NCBI GenBank assembly: GCA_018064645.1
Contig: JAGHUT010000043.1
Span: 1 to 36,040, forward strand
Origin: Candidatus Crickella merdequi
GTDB lineage: Bacteria > Bacillota > Clostridia > Peptostreptococcales > Anaerovoracaceae
Direction of reading: 5' to 3'
DNA: 36,040 nucleotides
Positions 7,947 to 36,040 of this stretch are shown piece by piece. The translations under genes were made by a program, and so were the position numbers. The notes under the pieces are model-generated. The model did no database searches and had not been told where the DNA came from. It saw nothing but the letters and a program-made list of their open reading frames with translations. Numbering within the stretch: the first letter of the stretch is position 1; each line of letters begins with the position of its first letter.

Positions 7947-8130
7947 GATTGTGACGAGTCATGTTCGTGGTTGAAAGTCCAGGCCAGATACGGGCGAAGG
8001 GATCCACGTAAGCAGCGAGCAAGCGGCCGCTGTGATCATGGCGTATCTTAGATGTAAGTCCTCCACAAAGTGGGTAAAGGCGAGTGTGGGGTCAAAGACC
8101 AGGTCGAGTGGCGCGTCACGATTTAATTTT
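7947..8130 (+). ncRNA. Structured non-coding RNA, candidate raiA-motif RNA
   Basis: About 180 nt with no plausible reading frame but many nested helices. The two ends close on each other: 7947-7956 pairs with 8114-8123 (GTGACG/CGTCAC core, extended by A-U and G-U pairs). Internal helices include CGTGG/CCACG (7966-7970/8004-8008), CAGCG/CGCTG (8013-8017/8028-8032), CTTA/TAAG (8047-8050/8055-8058), CTCCACA/TGTGGGG (8061-8067/8085-8091) and the competing GGTC/GACC (8090-8093/8097-8100). The terminal stem is followed by a U-rich tail. The known raiA-motif RNA of Bacillota and Actinomycetota typically lies between raiA (hpf) and comFC, and is tied to sporulation and aggregation in a Clostridium. 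Here it directly follows comFC and hpf is the next gene on the other side. Identity rests on synteny and foldability; I have not matched a consensus. RNase P and tmRNA are unlikely: wrong length and no conserved core. Confidence 0.65.
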
Positions 8131-8149
8131 TCAAGAATTGGAGATTACA

Positions 8150-8815
8150 ATGGCTAAAGAGAACGATATTTATTACGGCGACCTTATGCTTCTCAAGAGA
8201 AGAGTAAATGAATGGGCTGCAAGCCACCCTAAGAACAAGCTTTTTCAGCTTACTAAGATTGGAGTTCTTCTGGCTGGCTTTGGAGCAATGATTCTTGCAT
8301 ACATGGTCAATCCTGCAGCAGCTCAGGAGCAGCGTGTTTCACTATTTACATGTACGATTTTCTTTGCTTTTGTAGCAATGATTACTGTAGCAAGAAAGAT
8401 AACAAGCACACTACAGCCTCCATTCAACAAACTTTATAATGTAAGATTTGAGGCAAGTGATGAGGGCATTCTCTGTTACTATCAGCAGAAGATGGTCGAG
8501 TACAACTACTATATCAAGGACAAGAATATTAAGGAGTGGATTATCGACAGCGATGTCAACTGCATGTACATCAGAGGCAAGGCAGAGCTGACAAAGGCTA
8601 CTAAGGAAGGTCCAGAAAGAGTTGGCTCAGTTGAGGCTTTCTATATGCTGATTCCATTTGACCAGTTTGACCTTGATGACCTCGTTGAGCCATACGGCAA
8701 TCTTGTTCAGTACCAGAACGGAACAATGCGAGACAGAATTGCAGCCGCTGGAGTAACGAAACCTGTCGTAGACGAAGTTAAGCCATATTCAAAAGCAAAG
8801 AAGCTTAATAAATAA
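8150..8815 (+). CDS. Hypothetical two-helix membrane protein
   Basis: I do not recognise this 221-aa protein. After a basic, amphipathic first 30 residues come two hydrophobic helices (about 35-56 and 65-86) with a short loop. A C-terminal cytoplasmic domain of mixed beta character follows, with features such as VRFEASDEGILCYYQQ and YMLIPFDQFD. That layout is reminiscent of YcxB-like domains, but this is only an impression. The ATG at 8150 has GGAG 6 bases upstream; an earlier in-frame ATG (8084) falls inside the structured RNA and is rejected. It starts 20 bp past the RNA, so it may be expressed by read-through from the RNA or comFC. A strong terminator follows. Confidence 0.7.
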   Translation: MAKENDIYYGDLMLLKRRVNEWAASHPKNKLFQLTKIGVLLAGFGAMILAYMVNPAAAQEQRVSLFTCTIFFAFVAMITVARKITSTLQPPFNKLYNVRFEASDEGILCYYQQKMVEYNYYIKDKNIKEWIIDSDVNCMYIRGKAELTKATKEGPERVGSVEAFYMLIPFDQFDLDDLVEPYGNLVQYQNGTMRDRIAAAGVTKPVVDEVKPYSKAKKLNK

Positions 8816-15710: not shown

Positions 15711-16862
15711 TTAATTATTCAACATCATCGCAAGTGAGTCATCTCCGAAATATGTATTCGCATTATAGAGGAACATCACTTCATTAACACTTTCAAGGGC
15801 CATCAGCTCAGCAAGATTATCGTAGTAATATCTAGGATCAACCACGACAATCTCCCTGTAATACTGGGACAGGAAAGGAATCATGCTGTTGGCATATGAA
15901 TCCTTGACCAGGAGCAGTCTTCGGTTGTCAGAAGTCGGTGTCTTGATTGTATATACCGGATGATTGCTTCCGCCAAAGACAGTATATGCATCTTTAAGAT
16001 TGAGATTCTCCATTTTGTAGAATGCTGTGGTCTTCTCCTTGGTGTCTTCATAGTATATTACAGAGTGCTTGTACTGTTTTGAATCTGCAGGCCTTGCCAG
16101 TTTAATGGCATCAGCCCTGCCATTGGCAAAACCGCTCTTTGAAGCAAGTGTTCCAACAAATCTATTGGCAACAGGTACAGTCTCAAAGACCATATCCCCT
16201 TTGATTCCCATAATACCTTTTGCATATTTGAAGGCTTCATACGCACCATCTGTTGTCCAGTGATGGTCTGTTCTGTAGTAGACCTGGATTCCATCAGTTG
16301 CTGCCTTTCCAAGAGTATCTCTTACATCAATATTCGTGTATCCGGCAGCAGCTGTCGCCGCAAACATCTCATCCATGTACCTGTTCTGATCCTCAGGCTG
16401 CGCACCATATGGCAGCTTATCGCCCATAATGCTGACTGCATTTGGGGCAAGAAGGAAGTACATCCTCATTTTTGGGTATTTTTTGCGAAAAGCTGCAAGA
16501 GCCTGTGCATCGGCTTCCATTCTATCATCAGTTGGTACGGTAGTATCCTCTATCAGATATCCATCCTGACTCTTCCATACTCCATTTGAATATACAGCAC
16601 CTGCGCTTACATCCATAGCAGTCTTAAGCCTTATGAAAGGACCTCTCATAAGGAACTGGTCATTAGCATAATTCTCCAGCTTCGTCTCAAGACTTCCATC
16701 CATATATTCAGCTACAGAGAATCCCGGAAACTGCTGAAGCGCCCTGTTCTCCGATTCAGAAATCTCGCTGTCAGGAATAAGCGCATTGAAACAGAACATG
16801 CCGATAAGGACCGTCATGAAAACAATTCCCATTATTCTGTTAAAGTTCTTCTTCTCGTTCAT
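15711..16862 (-). CDS. DHHW-family protein (AlgJ/AlgX-like, SGNH-related)
   Basis: A 383-aa secreted or membrane-anchored protein. An uncleaved signal anchor at about 9-28 is followed by the DSEISESENRALQQFP segment typical of the family. The naming motif is in YYRTDHHWTTDGAYEAF (DHHW at 199-202), and LLLVKDSYANSMIPFL supplies the SGNH-like Asp/Ser pair. Such proteins work with MBOAT membrane acyltransferases to transfer acetyl groups to extracellular polysaccharides, as AlgJ/AlgX do for alginate. It is the last gene of a four-gene operon, 18 bp after the MBOAT gene. The acceptor polymer is unknown. Confidence 0.88.
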   Translation of the reverse strand: MNEKKNFNRIMGIVFMTVLIGMFCFNALIPDSEISESENRALQQFPGFSVAEYMDGSLETKLENYANDQFLMRGPFIRLKTAMDVSAGAVYSNGVWKSQDGYLIEDTTVPTDDRMEADAQALAAFRKKYPKMRMYFLLAPNAVSIMGDKLPYGAQPEDQNRYMDEMFAATAAAGYTNIDVRDTLGKAATDGIQVYYRTDHHWTTDGAYEAFKYAKGIMGIKGDMVFETVPVANRFVGTLASKSGFANGRADAIKLARPADSKQYKHSVIYYEDTKEKTTAFYKMENLNLKDAYTVFGGSNHPVYTIKTPTSDNRRLLLVKDSYANSMIPFLSQYYREIVVVDPRYYYDNLAELMALESVNEVMFLYNANTYFGDDSLAMMLNN

Positions 16863-16880
16863 TGCGCCTCTTAGTTCAAT

Positions 16881-18284
16881 TTAGAATCTGAAATACAGGA
16901 ATGGATTGTATGATCCGAATACCAGATATGCAAGAGCCATTACAAATACTGCCATGATAAAGGTAATTCCAAGCTTCTCGTGGGAGTCGCAGAGTTTTCT
17001 AATGAACTCTGCCGGCTTAGGTGTGCTTCCTGCAGTTGCCGCTATCAGCAGAACAATTGAAGTTCTGAGATAATATACTGTTGTCATGTTAGCAAGAGAT
17101 ACACCACCGAGGCCGAACATCATTGCAAGATAATGGAACATCTGTGCCGTATCTGTAATGCTGAAGAAAACCCAGCTTATAATTACAATCAGCATTGTAT
17201 ATACATGCTTCGCCCACTCCGGTAGCTTCTCAATGTATTTGCCAATCAGATACTTCTCAAGAATAAGCAGAATTCCAAAGTATGTACCCCACGCCACAAA
17301 GTTCCAGTTGGCTCCATGCCATAGACCTGTCAGTGACCACACAATCAGCAGATTGAGTATATGTCTCGGCACACTGCATCTGTTACCGCCAAGCGGAATA
17401 TATACATAATCTCTGAACCAGGATGAAAGCGATATGTGCCATCTTCTCCAGAAATCAGAAATACTCTTCGAAATATATGGATAATTGAAATTCTCCTTAA
17501 AGTCGAATCCGAACATTTTGCCAAGTCCAATGGCCATGTCTGAATAACCGCTGAAGTCGAAATAAATCTGGAAAGTATATCCGAGAATGCCTATCCATGC
17601 TGTGACTAGAGACATTCTGCTGTCAGGCAGCAGGCATATCTCTGCAAAAAGTGCTCCAAGATTATTTGCAAGGATTACCTTCTTGCCGAGTCCGATACAG
17701 AAGCGCACAGCTCCCTCTCCGAAGCGATCCATATTGCAGGTTCTCTCATCAAGCTGCTTCTCAATATCCTTGTAATTGACAATAGGTCCTGCAATGAGCT
17801 GCGGGAACAGCGCCAGGTAAAGAGCAACCTTAAGCGGATTCTTCTGAACCTCCACCTTGCCTCTGTATACATCGAAAATATACGAGAGCCCCTGGAATGT
17901 ATAGAAAGAGATACCAATAGGCAGCGGCAATGCTGTGTACTGGAGATGAAGCCCGAGTACAGCATTGATTGTCTCCATAAGGAATCCCCAGTATTTGAAA
18001 AAACCAAGAATGAGAAGATTCATTACCAGGGTGAAAAGCATATTTCTTTTGCCGCTTCCACCCATTTCCTTCTCTCGTGCAATCTGTCCAGCCATGAAAT
18101 AATTGAACAGAGCGCTGTAAATCATCAGGAAAACATATACCGGCTCACCCCAGCTGTAGAACACAAGGCTGGCAAGGAGCAGCCAGATATTACGAAGATC
18201 AAGGCGCTTCGTCGGAATACTGTAATATACGATAACCGTAATCGGCAGGAAGTATACCAGGAAGATGAGACTACTGAATAGCAT
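16881..18284 (-). CDS. MBOAT-family membrane O-acyltransferase (AlgI/DltB-like)
   Basis: A 467-aa polytopic protein that would carry acyl groups across the membrane. Conserved AlgI-type stretches are visible: PIGISFYTFQGLSYI (122-136), YFDFSGYSDMAIG (241-253) and FWRRWHISLSSWFRDYVYIPLGG (His283). The catalytic His323 lies in GLWHGANWNFVAWG. Length and motif order match AlgI-like enzymes better than DltB: there are no other dlt genes, and the neighbours are DHHW and SGNH proteins. Its start overlaps the DUF4358 gene by 14 bp, so it is translationally coupled. Confidence 0.93.
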   Translation of the reverse strand: MLFSSLIFLVYFLPITVIVYYSIPTKRLDLRNIWLLLASLVFYSWGEPVYVFLMIYSALFNYFMAGQIAREKEMGGSGKRNMLFTLVMNLLILGFFKYWGFLMETINAVLGLHLQYTALPLPIGISFYTFQGLSYIFDVYRGKVEVQKNPLKVALYLALFPQLIAGPIVNYKDIEKQLDERTCNMDRFGEGAVRFCIGLGKKVILANNLGALFAEICLLPDSRMSLVTAWIGILGYTFQIYFDFSGYSDMAIGLGKMFGFDFKENFNYPYISKSISDFWRRWHISLSSWFRDYVYIPLGGNRCSVPRHILNLLIVWSLTGLWHGANWNFVAWGTYFGILLILEKYLIGKYIEKLPEWAKHVYTMLIVIISWVFFSITDTAQMFHYLAMMFGLGGVSLANMTTVYYLRTSIVLLIAATAGSTPKPAEFIRKLCDSHEKLGITFIMAVFVMALAYLVFGSYNPFLYFRF

Positions 18285-18813
18285 CCAGAACCACCTCCTT
18301 GTACTTATCCGCCTTATCTGCAGTGCAGTAAATCACATAATTGCCTACCTTCTTTACTGCCGCATTCTTAAGCATCTTAACCTGCTCCGGCGCATAGCCG
18401 CTGTAAGCAGTAATCTGTGATTCGATTCTTTTGCGAACGGCTGTCTCGACACCATCGACAGAGGTTCCCTCCTTAGCCTTAACAACAAGGACCTCATCAA
18501 CAGCAAGAGCCTGAGTGTTTCGGTAATAAAGCACCTGCTCATAATCAGCTGCATTAAGGCCAATGAACTGCATCAGGTCTCTGTCACTCTGATCCTTGAG
18601 AACAGCTGTGAATTCAGTATCAGCCTTCAAAGCCGCGTCAATCTCTGCAAGATCCACATCTTCAGCCTCTGCACCCTTATATACAACGAATAGGAAGCCT
18701 GCCAGAACTGCAATAAAAAGAATTTTTAACAGGAAAAAGCCGAGGCCCTTCGGGTCCCGACTCTTCTTGATGTTGTTCATCTCTTCTGTCATAGGATTCT
18801 TTGTTTCGTTCAT
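18271..18813 (-). CDS. DUF4358 domain protein
   Basis: A 180-aa protein with a cytoplasmic N-terminus of about 25 residues, one membrane helix (about 26-44), and an extracytoplasmic DUF4358 domain. The domain shows YEQVLYYRNTQALAVDEVLVVKA and the C-terminal VGNYVIYCTADKADKYKEVV. The family has no proven biochemical role but recurs beside MBOAT, DHHW and SGNH genes, and this context matches. Its start is immediately adjacent to the SGNH gene stop (TAA then ATG), and its 3' end overlaps the MBOAT start. An accessory role in the acylation complex is inference. Confidence 0.82.
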   Translation of the reverse strand: MNETKNPMTEEMNNIKKSRDPKGLGFFLLKILFIAVLAGFLFVVYKGAEAEDVDLAEIDAALKADTEFTAVLKDQSDRDLMQFIGLNAADYEQVLYYRNTQALAVDEVLVVKAKEGTSVDGVETAVRKRIESQITAYSGYAPEQVKMLKNAAVKKVGNYVIYCTADKADKYKEVVLDAIQ

Positions 18814-19584
18814 TTACATCCCTGCTACTTCTATCATTCTGTCCATCCAGATTGGATAGTATGAAGGTGCTGCGTGAATTCCATCGCCTGCATAGAGATC
18901 AGGATGTGATGGAAGAATATCGGAGATATCAATAAATGTAAATCCGTTGTCTTTGCACATCGCCTCAATTGCAGTATTAAATGTCTTGTAGTAACTGATT
19001 GAGTGGTTGCCCTTTATTGCACCTTCCGTAGGTGTGGAAATACTGCAGACGCAAATCTTTGTATCTGGTGATGTTGCTGCAAAATCGTTGAGAAGCTGGC
19101 TGTATTTTGCAATAAAGGCCTTCTCATCTCCTCCGAAATTACCCATATCATTCATGCCAAAGGCGAAGAATGCAAATTCAGGGAATGTCTTTGCAGCTGT
19201 CTGGAACTGATCATCAGCATACACAATTCCACCGCCCACCTTGGCAGATACCTGTGCCTCTGTCAGCCAGTTGTAAACTGTCAGACCTTCAGTCAGTGAG
19301 TCTCCAAGAATAATTGATCTTGCAAAGGCTCTTCTGTATCTGATTCTCTGACCGGCGGTTGCATCTACCTTTGATGCTCTGTCAAGCTGTGCAACGGCAT
19401 TCTCTATCGTTGCGACCTCTGCAATCTGAAGGGCTTCAATCTGGTTAATATTCTCATTTATCTCTTCGTCTGACACATCAGCCTTTGCATAGCCTCTGCA
19501 AAGGTTGAACATGAAAAACACTAAAAAAGCAGCAACGACAACTGCAACTGCTTTACTTGCTTTTGTTGGAAAAAACTTCTGCAT
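18814..19584 (-). CDS. SGNH/GDSL-family hydrolase, membrane-anchored
   Basis: A 256-aa esterase-fold protein. A signal anchor at about 10-30 is followed by a helical stalk (36-75). The SGNH blocks are all present: GDSLTEG with nucleophile Ser96, the block II Gly in KVGGGI, GMND (143-146) with Asn145, and DGIH (234-237) for the Asp/His pair. It probably de-acylates or trans-acylates a cell-surface glycan. It is the first gene of the DUF4358, MBOAT, DHHW operon and has its own promoter. Confidence 0.9.
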   Translation of the reverse strand: MQKFFPTKASKAVAVVVAAFLVFFMFNLCRGYAKADVSDEEINENINQIEALQIAEVATIENAVAQLDRASKVDATAGQRIRYRRAFARSIILGDSLTEGLTVYNWLTEAQVSAKVGGGIVYADDQFQTAAKTFPEFAFFAFGMNDMGNFGGDEKAFIAKYSQLLNDFAATSPDTKICVCSISTPTEGAIKGNHSISYYKTFNTAIEAMCKDNGFTFIDISDILPSHPDLYAGDGIHAAPSYYPIWMDRMIEVAGM

Positions 19585-22575: not shown

Positions 22576-23760
22576 ATGATTTATGACTATATTGTAATAG
22601 GAGGCGGGGCTTCAGGCCTCATGTTCGCCTCTCAGCTAAAAAATAATAAGTCTCTCCTTCTCGAGGGCTCCCCTTCTTTCGGAACTAAGCTTCTGATAAG
22701 CGGAGGCGGCCATTGCAACATTACTCACGGGGGATCAATCAAGGATTTTGTTGACTGTTATGGGGAAGCAGGCAGACGCATCAGAACCTGCCTCTACAAG
22801 CACAGCAATCTTGAACTTATTAAGCTGCTCGAAGATAACGGAATAGCGACATATGCCAATGAAGAGAATAAGATTTTTCCCGTATCTATGCGAGCCCGCG
22901 ATATTCTTGACCTCCTGATAAGTAGAGCAAAGGCAAACGGATGGAGTCTTCACGCCAATGCAAAAGTAAAGGCCATTACAGAACAGGGCGAGACGATACT
23001 TGTTCACACCGAGGACGAGACCTACGAGGCGCGGAGAGTTGTAATCGCAACAGGTGGAATAACTTATCCAAAGACGGGTTCTGACGGTTCTATGTTTGAG
23101 ATACTGAAGAGCCTTGGAATTGAAGTAACAGAACTGCACTCTGTTCTGGCGCCGCTTACGCCTGAAGGCTATCCGTACGGAGAACTGGCAGGAATCGCTT
23201 TTCCTGATGCTGTTGTAACAACAGGTACAACGAAGAAGGACAGGCACACATTCAGAGATGCCCTGCTTTTTACCCACAAAGACCTGTCAGGACCTGCAAT
23301 TCTCAATATTTCAAGATACACTCCCGAGGGGACAGAATTCTCCATTAACTATATTCCTGATGTGGAGGATCCTTTCAAAGAGCTGGTGGCAGCGGTTGCA
23401 TCAAGTCATGCAAATTACGCAAATATTGTTGCAGATACTTTCGGAGTTCCTAAGAGATTTGCCGAGATTATCGTTTCTCGTGCTCAAGGCACAAGAAAAG
23501 CCACCGCTTCACGCGATGGCATATCTCTTAAATGTATTGTCGAGCTTCTCACCAATGACCGCTTCATCGTAAAAGAACGCGGAGATAATGGAATGGTAAC
23601 CATGGGCGGCGTTTCACTGAAGGAAATCAGCACATCAACCATGGAGCTTAAGAATCATCCTGGAATCTATGTTATAGGTGAAGCTCTCGATGTGGATGGA
23701 ATAACAGGAGGCTACAACCTCCAGTTCGCTTATTCCTCTGCAATGGCAGCTTCGTCGTAA
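22576..23760 (+). CDS. BaiN/HI0933-family FAD-dependent oxidoreductase
   Basis: A 394-aa flavoprotein annotated variously as BaiN-like or aminoacetone-oxidase-like. The FAD dinucleotide loop is at the very N-terminus (YIVIGGGASGLM), followed by GTKLLISGGGHCNITH, an internal VVIATGGITYPKTGSDGSMF, and the C-terminal VIGEALDVDGITGGYNLQFAYSSA. The substrate is not defined for most members; bile-acid dehydrogenation (BaiN) is only one proposal. The start is fixed by the FAD motif; earlier in-frame ATGs run through the CsoR operators and are rejected. Its last 31 bases overlap the end of argH on the other strand. Confidence 0.88.
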   Translation: MIYDYIVIGGGASGLMFASQLKNNKSLLLEGSPSFGTKLLISGGGHCNITHGGSIKDFVDCYGEAGRRIRTCLYKHSNLELIKLLEDNGIATYANEENKIFPVSMRARDILDLLISRAKANGWSLHANAKVKAITEQGETILVHTEDETYEARRVVIATGGITYPKTGSDGSMFEILKSLGIEVTELHSVLAPLTPEGYPYGELAGIAFPDAVVTTGTTKKDRHTFRDALLFTHKDLSGPAILNISRYTPEGTEFSINYIPDVEDPFKELVAAVASSHANYANIVADTFGVPKRFAEIIVSRAQGTRKATASRDGISLKCIVELLTNDRFIVKERGDNGMVTMGGVSLKEISTSTMELKNHPGIYVIGEALDVDGITGGYNLQFAYSSAMAASS

Positions 23761-25313
23761 TCAGGGTTGCCTACAAGCTCAACCCATACGCCATCATCCC
23801 AGTCTGAATCGATTGCCATATCAACTGAACCAGTTGTCTCGGCTATCGGCTCAAGATCATCAGCATCAAGAACTACAGGCTCTTCAGCATTTGCTGCAAG
23901 GGCCTCTTCTTCTGTCTCTTCTTCAGAAGTTGCAGCTCCAATTCCAAGCTTCTCCTCAACATAAGCGAACTGCTTAAGAACTGACTGAATTGAAGTTCCG
24001 CCTGCAGAGATTCTTCTTTCTACGCAGTTTCTGATATCAAGGGCATCATATACATCCTCCTCGATAATGCTGCAGAGATTCTTGTAATTATCAAGAGATA
24101 GGGTCTCAAGAACTTCTCCCATGGCGATGCACATTGCAACAGCCTTGCCCGAGATCTTGTAAGCATCACGGAAAGGAAGACCTTTTACAACGAGATAGTC
24201 TGCCAGGTCTGTTGCATTGATGTAACCTGTCTTAACTGCGTTCAGCATTGCATCACTGTTAACCTTCATCTCAGCAATCATTGGAATATATACCTCGATG
24301 CACTTCTTAACTGTATCGATTGCATCGAATACCATCTCCTTCTCTTCCTGCATATCCTTGTTATATGCAAGCGGAATTCCCTTGAGGATTGTCAGGAGAG
24401 CAACCAGATCGCCGTATACTCTTCCAGTCTTACCGCGGCAGAGCTCAGCCATGTCAGGGTTCTTCTTCTGAGGCATGATTGATGAGCCTGTTGTAAATGC
24501 ATCTGAAAGTGTGATGAAGCCGAATTCACTGCTTGACCAGAGAACAAGCTCCTCTGAGAAGCGTGAAAGGTGCATCATAAGAACTGATGCATCGCTTACG
24601 AACTCGATGCAGTAATCTCTGTCAGATACTCCATCAATGCTGTTCATTGCAATTCCATCGAAGCCAAGTGCATTAGCCTCGAACTCTCTATCTGTGTTAT
24701 AAGTTGTTCCGGCAAGTGCGCATGAACCGATTGGAGAAATGTTAGTTCTCTTGCGGCAGTCCTCGAGTCTGTCAATATCTCTAAGGAACATCATTGCGTA
24801 TGCCATCATGTGATGTGCAAAAAGAATAGGTTGTGCTCTCTGAAGATGTGTATAACCAGGCATGATTACATCCTGATTAGCCTTTGCAACCTCCAGCAGA
24901 ACCTGTACCAGCTCCTTCAGCATAGCAATGATTGTATCAATCTCCTCCATAGTGTACATTCTGAGATCGAGTGCAACCTGATCATTTCTGCTTCTTGCTG
25001 TGTGAAGCTTCTTGCCTACATCTCCAAGTCTCTTTGTAAGCTCAGATTCTACGAACATGTGAATATCTTCTGCTGTCATATCGAAATCGAGCTGTCCACT
25101 GTCGAGTTCTGCAAGAATCGCCTCAAGTCCTTCAAGAAGCTTCTCTGCATCCTGGAACTCGATAATTCCCTGCTTGGCAAGCATTACTGCATGAGCCATA
25201 CTTCCCTGAATGTCCTGCGCATACATTCTCTTGTCTACGCCGATTGATGAATTGAAATCGTCAGCTATAGGACTGGTGTCACCGCCAGTTCTTCCTGCCC
25301 ACATTTTTGCCAT
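23730..25313 (-). CDS. argH: Argininosuccinate lyase with acidic C-terminal tail
   Basis: Cleaves argininosuccinate to arginine and fumarate, the last step of arginine synthesis. The core (1-457) is standard: MAKMWAGRTGG start, HTARSRNDQVALDLRMY, PGYTHLQRAQP, and the fumarase-superfamily signature GSSIMPQKKNPD. The usual length is about 460 aa. This one has 527, because about 70 residues with 24 Asp/Glu and no Lys or Arg follow the core. The last 31 bases overlap the flavoprotein gene on the opposite strand. It lies 100 bp after argG, with a terminator in between, so its expression may be partly uncoupled. GAGG precedes the ATG. Confidence 0.95.
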   Translation of the reverse strand: MAKMWAGRTGGDTSPIADDFNSSIGVDKRMYAQDIQGSMAHAVMLAKQGIIEFQDAEKLLEGLEAILAELDSGQLDFDMTAEDIHMFVESELTKRLGDVGKKLHTARSRNDQVALDLRMYTMEEIDTIIAMLKELVQVLLEVAKANQDVIMPGYTHLQRAQPILFAHHMMAYAMMFLRDIDRLEDCRKRTNISPIGSCALAGTTYNTDREFEANALGFDGIAMNSIDGVSDRDYCIEFVSDASVLMMHLSRFSEELVLWSSSEFGFITLSDAFTTGSSIMPQKKNPDMAELCRGKTGRVYGDLVALLTILKGIPLAYNKDMQEEKEMVFDAIDTVKKCIEVYIPMIAEMKVNSDAMLNAVKTGYINATDLADYLVVKGLPFRDAYKISGKAVAMCIAMGEVLETLSLDNYKNLCSIIEEDVYDALDIRNCVERRISAGGTSIQSVLKQFAYVEEKLGIGAATSEEETEEEALAANAEEPVVLDADDLEPIAETTGSVDMAIDSDWDDGVWVELVGNPDYDEAAIAEE

Positions 25314-32776: not shown

Positions 32777-32799
32777 TTTCATATCTCCTTAAACCTAAT

Positions 32800-32836
32800 A
32801 AAAAAACCACATGACCTCGTCAGAAGTCATGCGGTT
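32800..32836 (-). terminator. Leader terminator (attenuator) in front of porC
   Basis: On the minus transcript AACCGCAUGAC (32836-32826) pairs with GUCAUGUGGUU (32815-32805): 11 bp with one G-U, a 10-nt loop, then seven T. The odd pair is G-U on the minus RNA but would be A-C on the plus RNA, so the hairpin belongs to the minus transcript. It is between the operon promoter and porC. Confidence 0.85.
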
Positions 32837-32869
32837 GGAATTACAGTTATTCGCTATTCGGCGTTATGT

Positions 32870-32977
32870 TCATTCACAATTTACAGCACAACTTTTGACG
32901 CTATCTGGCTGGCAAATAATGCAGCTAATAGCGCTAATAATAATAATGCTGATAATAATTGCGAATGTATTAAACAT
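32870..32977 (-). CDS. Ile-rich leader peptide (35 aa)
   Basis: A 35-codon frame starting at ATG 32977, with AAAGGA 8 bases upstream, inside the leader of the por operon. It reads MFNTFAIIISIIIISAIS, then CIICQPDSVKSCAVNCE. Ten of residues 7-21 are Ile (7-9, 11-14, 17, 20, 21), encoded by AUU or AUC. This resembles the composition of enterobacterial ilv leader peptides. AAGUUGUGC in codons 28-31 (32894-32886) can pair with GCAUGACUU (32832-32824), the 5' arm of the terminator, as an antiterminator. An alternative is a small hydrophobic membrane peptide. Confidence 0.6.
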   Translation of the reverse strand: MFNTFAIIISIIIISAISCIICQPDSVKSCAVNCE

Positions 32978-33009
32978 TAAATTATTCCTTTCAAATATAT
33001 TTCTATTGG

Positions 33010-33039
33010 ATTATATGTCCTCACAACACATTCTGTCAA
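33010..33039 (-). promoter_or_regulatory. Promoter of the por operon
   Basis: Minus strand: perfect TTGACA (33039-33034), an 18-bp spacer, and perfect TATAAT (33015-33010). The start point near 33003 gives a leader of about 225 nt before porC. The promoter begins 22 bp after the upstream gene's stop codon. Confidence 0.85.
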
Positions 33040-33061
33040 CATTTTTGTGCGAATTCACAAA

Positions 33062-34960
33062 TTATTTCTTTTCAATAGAGATTCTATTTAGATTTGCAAG
33101 CTTCTCCCTGCGTGCATACTCTTCCATCCATTGTCTCAGCTCCTCATTGACTGCATCCACTTCTTTGCGGAAGTTCTCTGCCTGTACAGGAATAGCATTG
33201 TTGCTAAGAATGATAATCTGCTCGGCAACATCCGAAGTAACGACTCTGACACGACGTTTTTTGCGAAGCTCATATGATGTTCGCTCGATATAAGTGTCTG
33301 CCGATTCTGCTTCCCCTGTATAAACTACGAATATGTTACCCTGCCTCTCAGTTCTCTGCACGCCGCCCTTAACGCGATATGCATCAAAAACCACGATGAC
33401 CTCTGCGTTAACTCTACCTTTATAATTGCAAAGCTCTTCGATAAGTGCTTCTCTTGCTGAATCGATGTTGATTCTTGCCAGTTCCTTGTACTTATCCCAT
33501 GCAAAAATCACATTGTATCCATCGATGAGTATGTACTCCGGCAGAATTTCTTCTTTCTTTATGACTACTTTCTCGGCAGTTCTCACCTCTGCAGCCTTGT
33601 GGAATGTATCCTTTGGCTTTCCATAGGTGCTTTCAAAAATTCTCTTAAGCTCGTCATCAAGGTCTTCTCCTACGCCGGCTCCTCCTGTATGACCGGGCAT
33701 CCACCTTGAGTTCAGATCAATTCGATTATCTTCTTCCTCGATAACTTCTTCAATTATCTCCTCATACACAGGCGGTATATATTCACAGATCTTAACCGCA
33801 ATACCAAGTCGCTGCAGTATAAGCTTCTCAAGCACCTCAAGCTGAACTTCGCCCATAATTCTTACAAGCAAAGCCTTCTCTTCAGTTACATAGAGCTGCA
33901 GCTCAGGGTGCTCCTCTTCAAGAAGCATCATATTCTGAATAAACCTGAAGCTGTTAACACTTGATGGGTATTGGATTTCACGCACTACACCCAGGTCGAG
34001 GGCACTTACTCTTCCCGCCTTGTCTGCACCAAGGCTCTGTCCCGCATAAGTATTCTCAGGTCCTGCTACAGCAACAATCATGCCTGGAGCAGCTTCGTCA
34101 ACTGTCCTGTATTTCTCACCCGAATATATTCTGATCTGATTGATCTTCTCTTCTGATTCCCCGGTGCGGATAAGGTCTTTAACCTTGAAAGACCCTCCTG
34201 TCACCTTCATGTGAGTAAGTCTTCCGCCCTTCTCATCTCGCGTGATCTTGTACACCCGCGCAGCAAATTCGTTTTTGTATTCTTTCTCAGCACTGTATCG
34301 CAGGATTCCCTCAATCAGATTATCTACACCTGCATCTTTAAGTGCAGAACCGTAATAGCAAGGGAAGAGCTTCCTTGCAAGGATTGCTTCGACTATCTCT
34401 TCATCTGAGATTTCTCCTGTCTCAAGGAATCTCTCAAGAGCTGAATCTTCATACAATGCTGCTGTCTCAAGGAATTCTTCCGTGCCCGCTTCTACGCAGG
34501 AGGAAGCAAGCTCTTCAGAGAGCTGCTTTCTGATGCCTTCCTTGTCAACAGCGTTAAGGTCCATTTTGTTAACCCAGATGAATGTTGGGATGCTGTACTC
34601 TTCAAGAAGTCTCCAAAGCGTTCTTGTATGCTGCTGAACTCCGTCTTTTCCATTGATAATGAGAATAGCATAATCGAGAACTCTAAGAGTTCTCTCCATC
34701 TCAGCTGAGAAGTCCACGTGGCCCGGCGTATCGAGGAGCATTATGGCTGTATCTCCGAAAGTCAGCTCAGCCTGCTTGGAATAAATAGTTATGCCTCTTG
34801 CTCTTTCCTGCTCGTCGCTGTCAAAAAAAGCGTCTTTACTGTCTACACGTCCTCTCTTTCTGATAACCCCTGCACTATAAAGCAACGCTTCGGAAAGCGT
34901 TGTTTTTCCAGCATCTACATGTGCAAGAAGGCCTACAGTGAGGCGTCTGCTGTTACCCAT
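33062..34960 (-). CDS. TetM/EF-G-like GTPase fused to a Rae1/YacP-like NYN ribonuclease domain
   Basis: A 632-aa fusion. Residues 1-400 are a translational GTPase of the TetM/EF-G type: G1 AHVDAGKT (13-20), G2 RGIT (55-58), G3 DTPGH (77-81), G4 NKMD (131-134), G5 GSAL (204-207), then domain II (about 235-325) and domain III ending in RIMGEVQLEVLEKL (368-380). Where EF-G and TetM continue into domains IV and V, there is an acidic linker (about 401-475) and then a NYN/PIN-like domain. That domain has LIDGYNV (Asp480), VVFDAY (Asp526), VKGG, AESADTYIE (Asp555) and VVTSDVAEQ (Asp577), in the order of Bacillus Rae1 (YacP), the nuclease that cuts mRNA in the ribosomal A site. The obvious reading is a GTPase that delivers or positions an mRNA nuclease on the ribosome; that is inference. 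Tetracycline resistance is unlikely because domain IV is missing. Confidence 0.9.
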   Translation of the reverse strand: MGNSRRLTVGLLAHVDAGKTTLSEALLYSAGVIRKRGRVDSKDAFFDSDEQERARGITIYSKQAELTFGDTAIMLLDTPGHVDFSAEMERTLRVLDYAILIINGKDGVQQHTRTLWRLLEEYSIPTFIWVNKMDLNAVDKEGIRKQLSEELASSCVEAGTEEFLETAALYEDSALERFLETGEISDEEIVEAILARKLFPCYYGSALKDAGVDNLIEGILRYSAEKEYKNEFAARVYKITRDEKGGRLTHMKVTGGSFKVKDLIRTGESEEKINQIRIYSGEKYRTVDEAAPGMIVAVAGPENTYAGQSLGADKAGRVSALDLGVVREIQYPSSVNSFRFIQNMMLLEEEHPELQLYVTEEKALLVRIMGEVQLEVLEKLILQRLGIAVKICEYIPPVYEEIIEEVIEEEDNRIDLNSRWMPGHTGGAGVGEDLDDELKRIFESTYGKPKDTFHKAAEVRTAEKVVIKKEEILPEYILIDGYNVIFAWDKYKELARINIDSAREALIEELCNYKGRVNAEVIVVFDAYRVKGGVQRTERQGNIFVVYTGEAESADTYIERTSYELRKKRRVRVVTSDVAEQIIILSNNAIPVQAENFRKEVDAVNEELRQWMEEYARREKLANLNRISIEKK

Positions 34961-35066
34961 CGAAAGGAGTCTCCTTATCTGTCTTCTTCATGCCTATTGT
35001 AGCACATTTCCATATTGACTAATATTGTATAATTGATACGAATAATCTATAGACAAGGAGAAGAAT
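34961..35066. promoter_or_regulatory. Divergent intergenic region
   Basis: This 106-bp gap separates the GTPase-Rae1 gene (minus) and mltG (plus). TATAAT at 35028-35033 could be the mltG -10, but no good -35 lies at 17 bp. TACAAT at 35001-34996 on the minus strand could serve the GTPase gene, again with a weak -35. AAGGAG for the GTPase gene is part of a short palindrome (34964-34976). Confidence 0.35.
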
Positions 35067-36040
35067 ATGTCTAAAAAAGGAAAGAAGACAAGCAAAAAAA
35101 AGCGCCAGAAGACCATCATAGCAATCCTGCTGGTTCTGCTTGTGCTGGTAATCGGAGCTTTTGCATATATGATAGGGCTAGGTCCTGTTGATTCAAAGGA
35201 TGATACTGATATTACAGTAACCATTCCAAACGGCAGCGGAGCCTCATATATCGTTACTCTTCTTGATGAAGAGGGTCTTGTTAAGAACACATTCTGCGCT
35301 AAGATCAACGCAAGAATCGGAGGCTACAACTCACTGCAGGCCAACACTTATGTATTCAACAAGACAATGTCTTTCAGAGAGATGATGAGAGCTATTAATA
35401 CAGGCGATTTCGACTACATCTCAAAGACAAGCATTAACATTATTGCAGGAGACAGACTTGAGCAGATTGCTTCAAAGATGGCCGCTGAGCTGCCATATAC
35501 TCAGGAGGAGATTCTTGCAGTATGGAAGGATACAGCATACCTCAAGGAGCTCATTGACAAGTACTGGTTCCTGACAGATGAGATTCTTGCACCTGATATC
35601 ATTTATCCGCTTGAGGGATACTTCTACGCTGATACATATTTCATCACTGATGAGAAGGAAACTATCAAAGAAGCTACAGAGATGTTCCTTGACAGAATGG
35701 ATACAGAGCTTACATCTCGCAAGGATGATATCAAGAAGTCAGGCTTCACAGTTCACAAGTTCCTTACACTCACTTCAATCGTAACTAAGGAAGGTGGAAG
35801 TCTTGATGAAGAGCTCCCAATCGTTGCCGGAGTATTCATCAACAGACTGAACAAGGGAGTTTCGCTTGGTTCTGATGTAACCGTAAACTACATCTATCAG
35901 CAGGATAAGGTTAATCTGACAAAGAGTCAGCTGGCCAACGATTCCCCATACAACACAAGAATCCACGTTGGTCTGCCACCAAGCCCAATCGCGGCAATGC
36001 TGGGTTCAAGAATGGATGCTGTTCTCCATTACGAGAAGAC
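35067..36040 (+). CDS. mltG: Endolytic murein transglycosylase MltG (3' end outside the window)
   Basis: Cuts nascent glycan strands at the outer membrane face and helps set strand length. At least 324 codons are present; the stop lies beyond 36040. A Lys-rich N-terminus (1-16) and one membrane helix (17-38) are followed by a LysM-like part (48-110) and the YceG domain. Hallmarks are PLEGYFYADTYF (181-192), the catalytic Glu242 in TSIVTKEGG, FINRLNKGVSLGSDVTVNYIY, and SPYNTRIHVGLPPSPI. AAGGAG precedes the ATG. Its neighbour on the minus strand is the GTPase-Rae1 gene. Confidence 0.95.
   Translation, partial: MSKKGKKTSKKKRQKTIIAILLVLLVLVIGAFAYMIGLGPVDSKDDTDITVTIPNGSGASYIVTLLDEEGLVKNTFCAKINARIGGYNSLQANTYVFNKTMSFREMMRAINTGDFDYISKTSINIIAGDRLEQIASKMAAELPYTQEEILAVWKDTAYLKELIDKYWFLTDEILAPDIIYPLEGYFYADTYFITDEKETIKEATEMFLDRMDTELTSRKDDIKKSGFTVHKFLTLTSIVTKEGGSLDEELPIVAGVFINRLNKGVSLGSDVTVNYIYQQDKVNLTKSQLANDSPYNTRIHVGLPPSPIAAMLGSRMDAVLHYEK

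Follow-up and report, generated by a model that had tools for sequence, protein, structure and literature searches.

What does a bacterium gain from a translational GTPase that carries an RNase of the Rae1 type at its C-terminus, and has that nuclease taken the place of a missing GTPase domain? Both questions are raised by a gene on the minus strand of the window, the 36,040-nucleotide stretch of Candidatus Crickella merdequi DNA analyzed here. A sequence-only reading of the gene had proposed that domain IV of an EF-G/TetM-type GTPase was replaced by an A-site mRNA nuclease domain, yielding a GTP-dependent factor for cleaving mRNA on ribosomes. As a whole, this interpretation is partly supported. 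We confirmed that the protein joins an EF-G/Tet-type G-II-III half to a C-terminal YacP/Rae1 NYN domain and lacks domains IV and V. The gene and its parts are as follows.

33062..34960, minus strand: short GTPase–NYN fusion gene, 632 aa, ATG start (open reading frame and Pfam)
34971..34976, minus strand: AAGGAG, 10 nt before the ATG, presumably a ribosome-binding site (sequence)
34295..34945, minus strand: G domain, residues 6-222, with five G motifs (Pfam GTP_EFTU and alignment)
34031..34267, minus strand: domain II, residues 232-310 (Pfam EF-G_D2)
33770..33988, minus strand: domain III, about residues 325-397 (weak in Pfam, clear in the model)
33548..33769, minus strand: linker, residues 398-471, mostly at pLDDT <50, the site of the missing domains IV-V (model and alignment)
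33623..33661, minus strand: short linker helix, residues 434-446, ELxxIF..T[YF]G (model and alignment)
33095..33532, minus strand: NYN_YacP nuclease domain, residues 477-622, with Asp480, 526, 555, and 577 (Pfam, alignment, and structure match)

Pfam matches place GTP_EFTU at residues 6-222 (3.9e-49) and EF-G_D2 at residues 232-310 (2.9e-12), and the five G motifs read AHVDAGKT, RGIT, DTPGH, NKMD, and GSA. EFG_III reached only E = 0.13, under the Pfam cut-off, and neither EFG_IV nor EFG_C gave a Pfam match anywhere in the 632 residues. NYN_YacP (PF05991) covers residues 477-622 at 1.7e-42 (145.7 bits vs a cut-off of 24.6; profile positions 1-148 of 166). The same part matches the solved YacP chains 5mq8 and 5mq9 at about 2e-20, with the Asp residues of the catalytic pattern aligned to Asp of solved YacP. 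Among the best 25 of 38 matching NCBIfam models, the top match is tet_protect, over residues 8-394. All whole-protein models in this set fall under their cut-offs, including tet_protect (279.2 bits vs 775) and RF3 (133.6 bits vs 473), and the generic small_GTP domain model alone passes.

An AlphaFold2 model of the protein is confident for the G-II-III body, through residue 397, and for the NYN domain at residues 474-623. Residues 1-397 of the model align to ribosome-bound EF-G (9rtu; 2.2 Å, 397 residues) and ribosome-bound TetM (3j9y; 2.5 Å, 392 residues), indicating that domain III is present despite its weak Pfam score. The earlier description of the G domain, domains II and III, the absent domains IV and V, and the Rae1/YacP-type NYN domain with its Asp pattern was thus borne out. 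The two confident bodies are separated by stretches of pLDDT <50 at residues 398-435 and 445-471, with one helix (434-446) in between. Because this linker of ~75 residues is mostly disordered, no fixed position of the NYN domain in domain IV's place is predicted, contrary to the earlier suggestion that the nuclease sits where domain IV would. The helix motif is common to short and long fusions (E437 and I441 are each found in 33 of 34 rows) and is perhaps a docking motif. At the joint, Y399, E401, D415, and W420 can each be matched to the long forms in 33 or more of the 34 rows, in an alignment that is unsure over so large a gap.

To place the missing domains in the history of the family, we aligned 46 full-coverage fusion proteins; partial frames were dropped, with L036 of G307 kept although partial. 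The stretch from domain III to the NYN domain spans 76-81 residues in three short forms (81 in the window protein) vs 308-404 in 43 long forms, in which the NYN domain sits after domain V. In a 34-member subset, Pfam detected EFG_IV in 31, EFG_C in 31, and NYN in all 34. In a maximum-likelihood tree from which the IV-V columns were excluded, the three short forms make up one clade (100/100) nested among the long forms, which argues that domains IV-V were lost later. The sister of this clade is G127 (support 94/93), and its stem branch measures 0.86; the short forms are not among the rows with long branches (L090, L096) or the three rows of odd composition. The simplest history that the sequences suggest is that IV and V were lost once, from a protein already fused. 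As judged from this tree and the alignment, the long fusion with IV, V, and NYN is the common, ancestral form and the short form the rarer, derived one, domain IV having been lost secondarily in a single small clade. Replacement of domain IV was not how the fusion was first built: 43 of 46 fusions carry both a IV-V stretch and the nuclease. Loss of the catalytic residues across the family, which had been named as a finding that would count against the idea, was not seen, since Asp480, 526, 555, and 577 are invariant in all 46 proteins.

Fusions of this kind have been noted before. Atkinson 2015 (PMC4342817) reports the acquisition of a YacP-like NYN domain by Tet proteins in ten species of Clostridiales; the long fusions are filed there under Tet, with a suggestion of RNase-based resistance. 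This is the only description of the fusion in the literature that we found, an absence that is weak since subscription journals lay outside the search; PMC12893667 and PMC10269496 mention NYN for unrelated genes. The full-length fusion is therefore already in print; the shortened form differs from it in lacking IV-V. The window protein shares with the published fusions a Tet/EF-G-type GTPase and a YacP-like NYN domain, and with the long forms found here the G domain, domains II and III, the linker helix, and NYN, whereas IV and V are missing from it.

We next consider how the fusion relates to free YacP. A standalone yacP, which the sequence-only reading had marked for checking, was not found in the window genome (92% complete). 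In an order-level sample of 148 genomes, each at least 90% complete and with all rows covered, NYN_YacP was found in 136, of which 41 carry it in a fusion-sized frame (635-923 residues) and 95 only as a free protein (171-216 residues, plus one split copy). The 41 fusions comprise all 26 matching genomes in the window's family, 13 in a second family, and two in a third. A free copy is absent from 40 of these 41 genomes; G418 has both, as does G485 from outside the order sample. A class-level sample gave NYN_YacP in 126 of 186 genomes: 62 in frames of at least 847 residues, 57 free (168-216 residues), and seven intermediate, six of them cut or split and the seventh being the window's own. In both surveys "fusion" denotes frame length, domains having been checked in the 46 aligned proteins only. 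When six family genomes with two NYN matches (G041, G114, G131, G209, G248, and G276) were re-searched, no clear free second copy emerged, and the second matches were incomplete or weak, or belonged to the frame that gave the first match. Genomes of the family can do without the gene, since 39 of 153 of them (at least 90% complete, at most 5% contaminated; 120 of 296 overall) have no NYN_YacP match.

Free YacP and the GTPase-tethered form thus nearly exclude each other, an observation that we consider more interesting than the loss of domain IV. With no separate YacP in the window genome or in 40 of the 41 order-level fusion genomes, the fusion plausibly does the job of Rae1. A plausible history would begin with a separate GTPase and a free Rae1, followed by their fusion, loss of free Rae1, and then loss of IV-V in one lineage. 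About half of the NYN_YacP-bearing genomes in the class sample (62/126) carry the nuclease in a fusion-sized frame; together with the near exclusion, this makes a ribosome-targeting GTPase a candidate route for bringing Rae1-type nucleases to stalled ribosomes. The broader idea of a delivery factor for free Rae1, brought to light by the fusion, fared less well. Close un-fused relatives of the GTPase, 635-672 aa long and with 43-45% identity across about 616 residues, were found in five of 21 free-YacP genomes, which lends it weak support. The other 16 gave no un-fused relative that close (in one of them, G355, a Tet-like protein matched at 32%), so Rae1 does not in general depend on such a GTPase.

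For the molecular role of the protein, we see an even chance that it docks on ribosomes through its GTPase, holds a Rae1-type A-site mRNase on a tether, and stands in for free Rae1; we infer its nuclease activity, docking, A-site target, and use of GTP. The GTP-bound protein would dock with G-II-III at the factor-binding site in the manner of EF-G or TetM, and the NYN domain, on its flexible tether of ~75 residues, would reach the nearby A site and cut the mRNA of paused ribosomes. Ribosomes on cut mRNA would then be rescued by tmRNA, which is present in G000 (the window genome), G082, and G307. Domain IV of EF-G and TetM occupies the A site. In the long forms domain IV should fill this site, so that it and the nuclease would not be there together; in the short form the A site would be empty because domain IV is gone, and the in-frame loss of IV and V in one lineage may thus leave it free for the nuclease. 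Rae1 is described in PMC12320835 as an endonuclease attacking mRNA in the A site, and tmRNA as able to rescue ribosomes after A-site cuts. A known substrate of Rae1, S1025, is named in PMC11780869.

Possible, if doubtful, is the alternative that the GTPase is a mere anchor on ribosomes and that GTP hydrolysis has no part in controlling the nuclease. As stated in PMC4339808, EF-G domain IV is needed for multiple-turnover GTPase activity, and the short form may therefore turn over inefficiently; C-terminal truncations of EF4 are described there as binding ribosomes and losing ribosome-dependent turnover. The predicted flexibility of the linker is also consistent with an anchor. On the other hand, the GTPase active-site residues D16, G18, K19, T20, DTPGH with its His, N131, K132, and D134 are invariant in all 45 rows that could be scored; two short forms are among these, the residues of G307 being hidden by a run of N. 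A bolder version, which we think somewhat unlikely, is that a two-function fusion became a dedicated, GTP-gated A-site mRNase when IV-V were lost, the docked GTPase letting its own tethered Rae1 domain into the vacant A site at a time set by GTP hydrolysis.

The nuclease might instead act on rRNA or tRNA, in maturation or decay. A role for the NYN domain in rRNA and tRNA maturation has been proposed, as cited in PMC4342817. We nevertheless consider such a target unlikely: the domain belongs to the YacP/Rae1 family, PMC12320835 characterizes Rae1 as cutting mRNA in the A site, and 40 of 41 genomes have the fusion in place of free YacP.

When 47 genomes of the genus were searched with the protein, three among the matches listed had the same layout: G000 itself and G082 and G307, two other species. 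The G082 protein is 66% identical to that of G000 and comes from a genome that is 99% complete; the G307 protein is 61% identical over residues 199-631, the preceding part lying in the N run. Because both share the layout, assembly error is excluded as the cause of the missing domains. Homologues with the same truncation therefore exist, but long homologues with IV-V and NYN prevail. No further short forms were found among the sub-800-residue frames examined from 17 other genomes, all of which were cut by contig ends or split over two frames and none of which contained the domain III-NYN junction; the count of three covers the frames examined and leaves out other short frames, e.g., those of G029, G049, G070, G245, G262, and G263. 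Between G000 and G082, pN is 0.23 vs a pS of 0.81, where pN/pS stands in for a proper dN/dS because synonymous sites are saturated over the whole gene. The short form is under purifying selection across species of the genus. It also evolves faster than its surroundings (66% identity between G000 and G082 vs 81-95% for five neighboring genes), a point against its being a tightly tuned factor.

The gene is flanked by two further features.

35067..36038, plus strand: mltG/YceG-like gene that runs off the window, given as context and unproven as part of the system (locus comparison)
32782-33061 in the window, and about 6570-6830 in L071, minus strand: leader of a vor/por (2-oxoacid:ferredoxin oxidoreductase) operon, adjoining the fusion gene

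The mltG/YceG gene adjoins the short fusion divergently in all three species. An mltG-fusion-vor order was found in none of 18 long-form loci compared, leaving an in-place deletion at the mltG-vor locus unsupported; in one of the long-form loci (L110), an mltG-like frame lies about 3 kb off.

The short form might also be taken for a decaying remnant of the long fusion, produced by deletion and without a function of its own, which we judge quite unlikely. The ancestral position of the long forms on the tree and their far greater abundance are consistent with decay, as are the faster evolution of the gene, its stem branch, and an EFG_III score under the cut-off. Against this, the frame is open and the active-site residues are kept in three species near synonymous saturation (with the GTPase residues of G307 out of view), pN is well below pS, and the place beside mltG is retained in 3/3. 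The short form is a natural minimal version: whatever function selection maintains can do without the domain that would reach tetracycline and the decoding site, and both active sites persist.

The tip of domain IV gives a further view of the GTPase. The motif GxxHxxHTxxGDFR is found in six long fusions and in four of the five un-fused relatives, the fifth having a stop in frame and being left out of the alignment. The same search also gave four Tet-like proteins with different tips, among them L119 with SPVSTPADFR, of the TetM type. The un-fused relatives stop near the point at which the fusions' linker starts. Judging from these comparisons, the GTPase half does not seem to be a plain resistance protein. 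That the protein is a tetracycline ribosomal-protection factor to which an RNase was joined, the role put forward in 2015 for the long fusions filed under Tet, is accordingly very improbable even with tet_protect as its best named model, given a score of 279 bits vs 775, the absence from the short form of the domain IV tip that holds the tetracycline-dislodging loops (PMC4342817), and the tip motif that the long and un-fused proteins carry in place of the L119 type.

Comparison with known systems places the protein between several families. It has the same NYN family and Asp positions as Rae1/YacP, but its NYN domain is tethered to a GTPase, whereas free YacP frames of 168-216 aa have none. 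Its G-II-III body superposes on ribosome-bound TetM at 2.5 Å, whereas domains IV and V of TetM/TetO are missing from it and the TetM-type loop tip is missing from its long relatives. RF3 is a translational GTPase without EF-G's domain IV; its chain 4v85_AW aligns to the model at 4.0 Å over 387 residues, and the C-terminal parts differ. EF4/LepA likewise lacks EF-G's domain IV, according to PMC4339808, and again differs in its C-terminal part.

Several other features of the window were observed. The vor/por leader contains a sigma70-type consensus (12/12) at 33039-33010, a small ORF of 35 codons with 10 Ile residues (32870-32977), and a terminator-like hairpin (32836-32805) directly ahead of the first gene. 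A similar ORF of 37 codons with 12 Ile, and by eye a similar hairpin, are present in the G082 leader. From its sequence, the leader looks like an isoleucine leader-peptide attenuator. A raiA-motif RNA (RF03072; 127.4 bits vs 101.3) at 7954-8116 on the plus strand overlaps the start of a 243-aa frame (8084-8815) with zero Pfam matches. In the 527-aa argininosuccinate lyase (23730-25313, minus strand), Pfam matches stop at residue 432, and about 95 C-terminal residues are unmatched. Finally, the minus-strand region 15711-19584 holds a cluster of DHHW, MBOAT acyltransferase, DUF4358, and GDSL-like proteins, whose role is perhaps the acylation of a surface polymer.
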